From: an uncultured Bacteroidota bacterium | GTDB taxonomy: Bacteria; Bacteroidota; Bacteroidia; Bacteroidales; VadinHA17 | Direction of reading: 5' to 3' | Assembly: GCA_903844815.1 (NCBI GenBank) | Contig: CAIMVD010000372.1 | Span: forward strand, 19,030-83,029 | DNA length: 64,000 nucleotides | Position numbers and translations under genes: made by a program | Notes under the pieces: model-generated | Databases searched by the model: none | The model's input: only the letters and a program-made list of their open reading frames with translations | Told to the model about the DNA's origin: nothing | Shown here: in pieces, positions 59,499-63,921 of the stretch | Position numbering within the stretch: the first letter of the stretch is position 1 | Layout of the letters: each line of letters opens with the position of its first letter

Positions 59499-59732
59499 TA
59501 CTTATTAGCCTGATCGGGGGCACCTTGAATAACTTCCTAAAGAAGTGCAAATCTCCTAAATTATTCCAATCGTAAACCCGGAACTACCATCTGTGGATTG
59601 ATGCGCTTATGGATAATTTTATTGACCTATTTTCGAATCAGAAAGCAGAAATTAAATCTGCCGGAGAATTTGAAAAGAAATTATCAGAGACAATAAAAAA
59701 GGTTAATCAAGTTAAATTAAATTTTAAACGCC

Positions 59733-60218
59733 ATGAAAAAATTAGTTTTATTGACAGTACTTTTAGTAGCTATATGTACTGTTTCGTTCGGAAAAAAAGT
59801 TGTTGCAAAAGGTCAGACTTTTACAGCAATGGGTGATTACAGAATTGAAACCGTTGACAATCCCGTTCCCCTGATGGGAAATTCCTGTACAGCTTATTCG
59901 ATAAAATACGAGAACTCCCCGATGGACGTCACAGTCATTATCTGCAAAGACAACAAATGCAAAAGGTACCTGGTTATTTCCGATAAACTTTCGGTACAGT
60001 ACGTTTGCAACAAAGATTATTTTGGAGTTCAGCCCCTGGATAAAGAGTTCGAGTCGCAGGGTTACAAAACATCAAACGATCACATGAACAGAATTGAGTA
60101 TTATCATCAGAGAGTACTTGGTCCCGGTCAGAAGCCTGAACTGGAGGCAACACAGCTTATAGCAGCATACTTCCCAATGCTTATTGCCCCGGAAGAAATG
60201 CTGACGGCTTCGAAATAA
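59733..60218 (+). CDS. Small secreted hypothetical protein
   Basis: 161 aa with signal peptide MKKLVLLTVLLVAICTVSFG; overlapping ORF 59609-59836 is in another frame. Confidence 0.7.
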   Translation: MKKLVLLTVLLVAICTVSFGKKVVAKGQTFTAMGDYRIETVDNPVPLMGNSCTAYSIKYENSPMDVTVIICKDNKCKRYLVISDKLSVQYVCNKDYFGVQPLDKEFESQGYKTSNDHMNRIEYYHQRVLGPGQKPELEATQLIAAYFPMLIAPEEMLTASK

Positions 60219-60415: not shown

Positions 60416-61180
60416 TTATCCTCTGAATCTTGACATGTGAATGAGGAAAATATCCTTTCTGGTTCTGGAGATTGGAACCTGCGATCCGTCGAGCATCTCA
60501 ATATAACCACCCTCGGTCTTTACATATTTTTTCACATACTTCAGGTTTATAAGGCAGGAGTTGTGGCACCTGAAGAAATACCTGTCGCCGAGAAGATCCT
60601 GAAACTCCTTAAGGTTTTTAGAGACCAGGATCTTTCTTCCTCCCGTGAGATAAAACCACGAGTAACTGCGATCGGCCTCAATTCTTATTATCTCTCTTGG
60701 ATTAAGGTACTCCATTCCATCTGAGGTGGGTATTGCCAGCCTCGAAGGAGTGGGTGTTTTTAAGTTTTCCATCAGCACCCTGAATTTCTCGTTATCACCG
60801 CTTCCCCCGGCCGACCTTTTATGAACGACCCTGGCCATGGCCTCAGTGAATTCGCTTATATTAATGGGCTTCAGAATATAATCAACAGCACTGAATTTAA
60901 TAGCTTTTATTGCATAATGGTTGAATGCAGTAATAAATACAACATCAAATTCTTTATCGGGGAAATGTGAAAGAAGATCAAAACCGGTACCATTTGGCAT
61001 CTCCACATCGAGCAGGACAAGGTCGGGCTTCTCTTTTTCGATCACTATAACACCTTCTGCCACATTATTGGCTTTTCCCACTACTTCAAGATCGATGCAA
61101 TATTCGCCAATTATGGAGGTTATGAAATCAACGGCATTTTGTTCATCATCAATAACGATGGTCCTGAGTTTCCTTTTCAT
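60416..61180 (-). CDS. LytTR-family response regulator
   Basis: Receiver DLVLLDVEMPNGTGFDLL; C-terminal LytTR IIRIEADRSYSWFYLTGGRKILVSKNLKEFQDLLGDRYFFRCHNSCLINLKYVKKY. Confidence 0.95.
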   Translation of the reverse strand: MKRKLRTIVIDDEQNAVDFITSIIGEYCIDLEVVGKANNVAEGVIVIEKEKPDLVLLDVEMPNGTGFDLLSHFPDKEFDVVFITAFNHYAIKAIKFSAVDYILKPINISEFTEAMARVVHKRSAGGSGDNEKFRVLMENLKTPTPSRLAIPTSDGMEYLNPREIIRIEADRSYSWFYLTGGRKILVSKNLKEFQDLLGDRYFFRCHNSCLINLKYVKKYVKTEGGYIEMLDGSQVPISRTRKDIFLIHMSRFRG

Positions 61181-63162
61181 GTCATCACGGGAATTTGTAG
61201 TTCAACCCGGGTACCTTCAGCTTCTCCATTTTCGTTCTTAAGGTCAGTGTAAGTGGTCTTAAGGCTTGTTCCGTAAAGCGAATTTACAAGGTCGAGTCGC
61301 GAATTTGTTATTTGTGTGCCGAGTGAATTATGTTCGGCTCCCCTGGATTTCTTATTCTCGAGTGCGGCATCCCTGCCAATACCATTGTCCTCAATTGTGC
61401 AAATAAGGGTGCCATTGTCAATCATAATATCAATTTTAACTGTCCCCTTATGATGCAGAGGCATCAGACCATGACAGATAGAATTTTCCACATAAGGCTG
61501 AATAAGCATTGACGGAACCTTATATAGCAGCGAATCGATATCTTCATCAACGGTTATGGCATAATCGAATTTATCCCTGAATCTGAGGCTTTCAAGTTCG
61601 AGGTAAAGGTTCAGGGCATCGAGTTCATCACTTAATGATATGTAAGTGTGCTGGGAATTTTCAAGAACCTTTCTGATGAGGCTCGAAAACTTAGTAAGAT
61701 AATTGTTTGTTGCCAGCTTATCATGCTGGTACATAAAATACTGGATAGAGTTCAGAGTATTGAAAATGAAATGAGGATTCATCTGCTGTCGAAGGTTTGC
61801 CTGTGTGATCTCGGAGATCTGACGCTTCATCTCGCTCAGTTTCCTTTTAGCATTGCTCTTTGAACTAATTACAATAAGCGCTGCTATCACCAGGATAAGT
61901 ACTATTAATCCTGCAAATCCAAAGATCAGGAGCCTGTTGTTTTTTAGTCTGAGTGAAAGGAGGGCAATCTCTTTTTTGTGGTTGTCAGCCTCATACCTTA
62001 TCCTGGCATCGGCAAGACCCTTACTGCTGCTTTTCTTGCTTAACGAATCGCTGTACTGCTTGTAAAGAACATAATTTAAGTAGGCTTTTGATGTATCATT
62101 GATACTGATAAAAAGCTTGCTCATATCCTGATATACCCATGAGAGATTATACCAGTCGTGAACTTTTTTTGCCTGATTTATAGATTTTTCATAAAAGTTG
62201 ATTGCAAGGGGATACTTTTTCAGATCGCGGTAGATGGTTCCAATGTTGCCAAGTGAATTGGATGATATTGAAATCTGTTTTCCCGGGATGCTGTAGTCAA
62301 GCGACATTTTATAATAGTAGAGGGAAGGATCATAGTCTTTTTCGAGATAATAGTTGTATCCGATATTTGCCGAGGAGAACCCTGTATAAAATGTATCTTT
62401 TCTGACGATTGAAATCTCAAGACATTTTTTAAGCAGGGAATCCACTTTATGAAAATTCCTGTCATTTTCGATATAAGAACTTCCAAGCCTTAGCAAGCCT
62501 TCTTCTAATCCCAGTGTATCTCCCTCGGCAGTAGATGCATCTATTGAATATCTAAGATTAGTCCTGTAACCTTTAAGATCACCTGCCGCATTCATCACAC
62601 TTGCAATTCCAAAATAGCCGTCATGGATTATTCCGGTTATTTTCCATTTTTTAGCAAGTTCAATACTTTTCATATAAGCATCACTGCTCTCCTTGAAAAA
62701 TCCGGTGCGGAGGGAGTATAATCCCTTGAAAAGCAAGATTTTGGCTAATCCGTTATTGTCCTTTTTTTCTTGGGCAAGATTTTCTGCGAGGTTTATTTCC
62801 TCTTCAACTGCAGTAAAGTCACCAATCTCGAAACTGTATCTGGCTGAAAGAAAGTGTAAATCAGCCGGGATTTCGTATCCTTCCTTTTGGCACAACTGTA
62901 TTGCTGAATCGATGTAAGCTTTTGTAATGTCAGGTTTGTACCGGTTCTTTTTCAGGTATTCATTGCCTTGTCTGATAAAGGAGTTTAACCTTGATGTGTC
63001 AACATAGAGAAATCCGGAACCGGTTCCGGAGGCAGGTTTCTGAAAGCTGTTCGGAACTCCCGCTAATGAAGGTTCCGTGAGGACAAGGGATAAAAGCAGT
63101 ATCGCTGGTATCACCCTTTTAACTGACTTATCGTTTAGCAGTTGCATAATACAAAGTTGCAT
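61177..63162 (-). CDS. TPR-containing LytS-type sensor histidine kinase
   Basis: TPR-like repeats, TM, QMNPHFIFNTLNSIQYF, MLIQPYVENSICHGL, CTIEDNGIGRD; overlaps the LytTR gene by 4 nt. Confidence 0.95.
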   Translation of the reverse strand: MQLCIMQLLNDKSVKRVIPAILLLSLVLTEPSLAGVPNSFQKPASGTGSGFLYVDTSRLNSFIRQGNEYLKKNRYKPDITKAYIDSAIQLCQKEGYEIPADLHFLSARYSFEIGDFTAVEEEINLAENLAQEKKDNNGLAKILLFKGLYSLRTGFFKESSDAYMKSIELAKKWKITGIIHDGYFGIASVMNAAGDLKGYRTNLRYSIDASTAEGDTLGLEEGLLRLGSSYIENDRNFHKVDSLLKKCLEISIVRKDTFYTGFSSANIGYNYYLEKDYDPSLYYYKMSLDYSIPGKQISISSNSLGNIGTIYRDLKKYPLAINFYEKSINQAKKVHDWYNLSWVYQDMSKLFISINDTSKAYLNYVLYKQYSDSLSKKSSSKGLADARIRYEADNHKKEIALLSLRLKNNRLLIFGFAGLIVLILVIAALIVISSKSNAKRKLSEMKRQISEITQANLRQQMNPHFIFNTLNSIQYFMYQHDKLATNNYLTKFSSLIRKVLENSQHTYISLSDELDALNLYLELESLRFRDKFDYAITVDEDIDSLLYKVPSMLIQPYVENSICHGLMPLHHKGTVKIDIMIDNGTLICTIEDNGIGRDAALENKKSRGAEHNSLGTQITNSRLDLVNSLYGTSLKTTYTDLKNENGEAEGTRVELQIPVMT

Positions 63163-63219
63163 TAAAATCTATTAATATGGCTCTTCTCCGATCAGGTTTG
63201 TCATCAAGATAACAGTTTT

Positions 63220-63291
63220 TAGCACAGATTGTCGTTTCCGGTTAACGGATTGCTGTTTTGGGTTAACGGATGGAGGGTTTTGAGCAACGGT
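63220..63291 (-). promoter_or_regulatory. Array of LytTR-like direct repeats at 21-bp period
   Basis: Minus-strand nonamers ACCGTTGCT (63291-63283), TCCGTTAAC (63270-63262), TCCGTTAAC (63249-63241) and degenerate TCTGTGCTA (63228-63220); spacing 21/21/21 bp. Confidence 0.65.
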
Positions 63292-63857: not shown

Positions 63858-63921
63858 TTTACCCCCCAACCCCCCAAGGGGGGATTTAAGAACACCCCCC
63901 CCGGGGGGGCAGGGGGGGTAA
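63858..63921. repeat. C/G-homopolymer palindromic element
   Basis: TTTTTACCCCCCAACCCCCCAAGGGGGGATTTAAGAACACCCCCCCCGGGGGGGCAGGGGGGGTAAAA: inverted runs of C6-8/G6-7. Confidence 0.85.

Follow-up and report, generated by a model that had tools for sequence, protein, structure and literature searches.

The closest described parallels to the locus analysed here are the LytTR regulators HdrR and BrsR of S. mutans, which act at two 9-bp direct repeats with 12 bp between them, just upstream of the -35 region, and which positively autoregulate their own operon together with downstream targets (PMC6193735). For HdrR, activation from this layout was shown by experiment (PMC6193735). Both the arrangement of repeats and the proposed mode of control recur here, the differences being a Bacteroidetes-type promoter and, as the second target, a gene for a secreted protein of unknown family. 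The LytTR Regulatory Systems (PMC6193735) consist of a regulator and a membrane inhibitor and have no kinase, whereas the locus analysed here is a two-component system: the regulator is a receiver-LytTR protein, and it is partnered by a histidine kinase with His_kinase and HATPase_c domains. AgrA of S. aureus (PMC4227749) is likewise a LytTR-domain response regulator that uses direct repeats upstream of promoters, the proximal ones centred near -60, although its setting is Gram-positive quorum sensing at the divergent P2/P3 promoters and its half-site and kinase type are different. Triple-repeat LytTR operators are also already known: CoxC of A. carboxidovorans and RcoM (PMC11347149) recognise three direct repeats two helical turns apart, similar to the triple array found in our sequence. 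These proteins differ in their TTCNNGCA-type half-sites and in being one-component sensors, with CoxC repressing from over the -35 box, and in their class all three repeats are needed for binding, while here the third half-site is confined to our sequence and a few relatives.

The window, a stretch of 64,000 nucleotides from an uncultured Bacteroidota bacterium, covers positions 19030-83029 of its contig. The kinase locus stops at the same point, so the end of the window is the end of the contig; stretches of C and of G (CCCCCCAAGGGGGG, CCCCCCCCGGGGGGG) at 63860-63920, near this end, possibly belong to a repeat that ended the assembly. The gene at 61177-63162 on the minus strand encodes a 661-residue sensor histidine kinase in which an N-terminal hydrophobic stretch, TPR repeats and a transmembrane segment (an apparent one, seen as a hydrophobic run in the translation) precede the His_kinase (PF06580) and HATPase_c domains identified with Pfam. 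The kinase resembles Porphyromonas FimS (NCBIfam NF053520) weakly in its TPR sensor part (residues 56-327, E=1e-11), and with 43.7 bits against an equivalog cut-off of 600 it is not FimS. The overlapping gene at 60416-61180, also on the minus strand, encodes a response regulator of 254 residues, presumed to be the operator-binding protein, in which both Pfam domains score over their cut-offs (Response_reg 67.9 bits; LytTR 59 bits, cut-off 22.6). At 113.2 bits against an equivalog cut-off of 246 (NCBIfam NF008677), this regulator is not BtsR. Its orthologs are 68-79% identical and lie beside the kinase wherever the contigs of the genus reach.

The start codon of the kinase is uncertain: the -7-like sequence CAACTTTG overlaps the first codons of the annotated gene (63147-63162), and the true start may be the downstream ATG at 63147. 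We rejected this sequence, which lies inside ATGCAACTTTGTATTATG, as a second promoter at the kinase start codon since its distance to the operator is variable; similar features are seen in two relatives (L030 and L035).

Direct reading of the window confirms the three AACGG cores of the original prediction, which follow one another in 21-bp steps upstream of the kinase (63244-63248, 63265-63269 and 63286-63290). The exact pattern AACGG-N16-AACGG-N16-AACGG matches once in the window, and with two mismatches allowed it matches four times (two of these within the array), compared with 0.10 expected from shuffles, none of which reached four. Genome-wide, the five-base core pair AACGG-N16-AACGG is uninformative, because it gives 24 matches against 49 for the reversed control pattern. 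The equivalent search for CCGTT-N16-CCGTT that had been proposed for defining the regulon therefore returns noise, and it would also overlook the other genuine target, at 59564-59597. The full 34-bp element with two half-sites behaves quite differently, the window site scoring 42.2 bits with a leave-one-out matrix against a control maximum of 5.2. This operator (CTCCATCCGTTAACCCAAAACAGCAATCCGTTAA) occupies 63242-63275 on the minus strand, with the proximal half-site (conserved half-site 2, TCCGTTAAC) at 63241-63249 and conserved half-site 1 (also TCCGTTAAC) exactly 21 bp upstream of it at 63262-63270. It is the best match to the model in the genome, at an E-value of 1.5e-7 that is to be read with the array itself being part of the training set. 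The nonamers of the window agree with the Gram-positive LytTR consensus [TA][AC][CA]GTTN[AG][TG] at 8 of 9 positions; the half-site consensus of the genus, TCCGTAAA, departs from it at position 6 in many species and is accompanied by an extended conserved spacer, TCAAA..TGC. A search for RNA elements near the operon gave no Rfam match.

Comparison with related genomes lends strong support to the LytTR reading. We collected 29 loci from the same genus including the window's own genome, mostly at 50-61% protein identity, together with one from another family (L057), and applied expectation-maximisation to their kinase upstream regions. A single element, TGnCATCCGTnAAnTCAAAnCTGCAATCCGTAAA, was recovered with a log-likelihood of 568, against 118-133 for dinucleotide shuffles. 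The two-half-site element, with the consensus CATCCGTnAAnTCAAAnCTGCAATCCGTAAA, is present in all 29 same-genus orthologs, in 28 directly and in L039 after setting aside an over-long ORF start, and is not recognisable at the more distant L057, whose regulator is 62% identical. Across the genus loci the half-sites are 21 bp apart in 26 cases, with at most three cases at any other distance, which is the pattern of two imperfect 9-bp direct repeats with a 21-bp period that defines LytTR operators. The element keeps its place next to the kinase even though the genes and intergenic DNA further upstream differ from one ortholog to another; therefore, its conservation is not a by-product of background synteny.

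The original prediction was that three or four sites in place of the usual two might allow graded or oligomeric binding; as to the number of sites, it is partly right. Two half-sites make up the conserved operator, to which the window and a few relatives add a credible third, whereas the fourth is rejected. The lineage-specific third half-site (ACCGTTGCT; 63283-63291, minus strand) lies distal to the pair and has a pair score with half-site 1 of 22.2 bits. Counterparts at the same position are clear in L035 and L046 and weak in a few others (6 of 27 with p<0.05, binomial 0.002). In this species it probably strengthens or extends binding. The degenerate fourth sequence (TCTGTGCTA; 63220-63228, minus strand) has a pair score of only 7.3 bits, is not conserved at +21 in orthologs and falls in the promoter spacer between operator and -7 box; it is probably no site.

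A second operator, which the original prediction had missed, lies on the other side of the operon. At 59564-59597 on the plus strand, TTCCAATCGTAAACCCGGAACTACCATCTGTGGA contains half-sites 21 bp apart and scores 29.5 bits with a matrix whose training set held nothing but the other kinase promoters and for which the control maximum is 5.2; in the genome-wide search with the sequence model its E-value is 0.0024. It precedes the gene at 59733-60218 (plus strand, convergent with the operon), with the same spacing to the -7 box as in the array. This gene encodes a 161-residue protein of unknown family with a signal-peptide-like N-terminus, for which no Pfam, NCBIfam or PDB sequence match was found. 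Its AlphaFold2 model (pLDDT 83) consists mainly of beta strands followed by helices, and a Foldseek search with this model gave no PDB match (best E=0.93). Among 35 loci from named Bacteroidales MAGs with sequence upstream of the secreted-protein gene, 29 have the element, detected with the kinase-trained matrix at a distance of 152-186 bp upstream of the ATG. Many of these MAGs are the genomes of the genus set, but the secreted-protein promoters were absent from the training data and are independent of it. The leaders of this gene (L135-L168) share further features, namely the start context GCCATG in 27 of 31, a conserved ACAGTAAA some 45 nt upstream of the ATG in 17 of 31, and possibly a small hairpin, GAAG..CTTC, within the 5' leader.

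Taken together, these observations lead us to interpret the array as the operator of the adjacent LytTR regulator, serving positive autoregulation and activation of the secreted-protein gene at 59733-60218, and we put the probability of this reading at roughly 0.88. Within it, binding by this particular regulator, activation as opposed to repression, the phosphorelay and what the secreted protein does are elements that we infer. In this model, the TPR-type sensor kinase (61177-63162) would phosphorylate the regulator (60416-61180), whose active form would bind both 9-bp half-sites, which with their 21-bp period lie on the same face of the DNA and are centred at about -46 and -67. The bound regulator would then activate RNA polymerase carrying the Bacteroidetes primary sigma factor, with the -7 box at a fixed distance downstream. 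As a result, the operon would be positively autoregulated, and the convergent gene at 59733-60218 would be co-activated through the second, weaker copy of the operator.

The geometry of the promoters bears directly on the direction of control. The -7 box of Bacteroidetes has the consensus TAnnTTTG (PMC7366714), and in the kinase promoters a TAnnTT begins 30 bp after the element in 25 of 28 cases and 29 bp after it in the remaining 3, against a mean count of 0.37 at other offsets. The secreted-protein promoters repeat this phase, with offset 30 in 24 of 31 and offset 29 in 5 more; over both promoter sets the mean at other offsets is 0.2-0.4. In the window, the predicted -7 boxes are TATCTTGA at 63204-63211 (minus strand) for the kinase operon and TATTTTCG at 59628-59635 (plus strand) for the secreted-protein gene, each 30 bp after its operator. 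Assuming a start of transcription some 4 bp beyond the -7 box, the half-site centres fall at about -46 and -67, with the distal one at -88, placing the operator immediately upstream of the -35/-33 region of this predicted start. The spacing between operator and -7 box is, by analogy with described systems (PMC6193735, PMC4227749), the geometry of a LytTR activator. The fixed -7 phase and the conservation in all 29 genus loci support the predicted LytTR-type direct-repeat operator, which lies upstream of the kinase/LytTR operon and very likely controls it. A CTGATC element (63190-63200, minus strand) is found near the predicted transcription start and also in L031, L036, L041, L043, L056 and others; of 28 kinase leaders, 10 have it at 44-56 nt from the operator on the downstream side and one more at 82.

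It is conceivable that the regulator binds the operator but represses both its own operon and the secreted-protein gene, as the repressor CoxC does from three repeats that overlap the -35 box (PMC11347149). We consider this improbable, because a gap of several bp separates the end of the proximal half-site from the position expected for a -33 box downstream, and the -7 box is left uncovered. Moreover, the layout fits LytTR activators, whose repeats lie 4-11 bp upstream of the -35 box (PMC6193735), and the -33 boxes of these promoters are poorly conserved, as expected where a promoter depends on an activator.

Likewise, the sites could be bound by some other factor, be it a LytTR protein from among the other 19 or a protein without a LytTR domain, given that the genome encodes 20 LytTR domains and that the pairing of this regulator with this operator is a prediction here. 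The distribution of the sites argues against this, and we consider it improbable as well. In the 6.4-Mb genome of the window only two sites are significant, the array and 59564-59597 at the E-values given above, with the next match at E=0.48; despite the 20 LytTR domains, both flank this one operon. Across 62 genomes of the genus, the sites track the operon and the secreted-protein gene: a site (E up to about 0.01) is found in 35 of 35 genomes with the secreted-protein gene, 30 of which also have an ortholog of the response regulator. In 34 of these 35 the E-value is below 0.01, and in the remaining one (G046) it is 0.012. Only 1 of the 27 genomes that hold neither the secreted-protein gene nor the regulator ortholog has a site (Fisher p ~3e-15), a test with some circularity, since genomes carrying the operon were used to build the model. 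Outside the genus, the rest of the family yields two marginal matches only, which also counts against this alternative.

Five genomes have the site and the secreted-protein gene with no regulator ortholog detected, and at these loci we find contig ends, gene decay or operon deletion. In L091 an apparent deletion joins the secreted-protein gene to antisense regulator sequence, and in L096 the kinase and regulator are decayed and have the secreted-protein gene next to them in two copies; the module thus appears to decay in some species. Some relatives (L099, L100, L105, L090, L102, L101, L103) have further sites, located before genes for SusC-like TonB receptors, DUF5916/CBM9 proteins and Rce1-like proteases, and therefore the regulon can be wider.

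A period equal to seven codons and two near-identical units in the window might suggest that the array arose by chance as a tandem duplication, or that it is a remnant coding repeat of the mechanical 80-residue minus-strand ORF in which it lies. The conservation pattern refutes this: half-sites, spacing and -7 phase are all retained in orthologs with 50-61% protein identity, amid unrelated intergenic sequence and different upstream genes. The ORF, moreover, has no Pfam match.

The principle of control by the adjacent LytTR regulator is known and represents ordinary LytTR biology, whereas the regulon of kinase, response regulator and secreted protein, conserved in Bacteroidales, appears to be new. 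LytTR regulators are numerous in Bacteroidetes, and we found few described LytTR operators from this group in the literature searched. Our results provide a precisely defined operator and its phase relative to the Bacteroidetes promoter, which open a direct experimental route to the signals that such kinases sense, together with a model usable for annotating related genomes. Furthermore, the two-promoter regulon draws attention to a secreted protein that is conserved and has no known function.

The linkage of kinase, LytTR regulator and secreted protein is shown by these data, the secreted-protein gene being in this genus almost always under the same LytTR operator. More tentatively, and with the odds rather against it, the three could make up an envelope signalling circuit that is self-contained, other Bacteroidales families having more distant versions linked to LytTR; it is speculation that the secreted protein feeds back on the TPR sensor part as a ligand, modulator or output. 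Distant homologs of the secreted protein occur in 8 of 295 genomes sampled across the order, all outside the genus, at low identity and in several Bacteroidales families. LytTR genes are nearby in 3 of 10 regions around these homologs, and a lag of 21 is the best repeat lag in 2 of 13 upstream regions (L175 and L176; rank 1 of 48). The sequence evidence for a LytTR link of these homologs is suggestive only: the 21-bp direct repeats of L175 and L176 are built on a different half-site, with 11/12 and 10/12 matches at lag 21.
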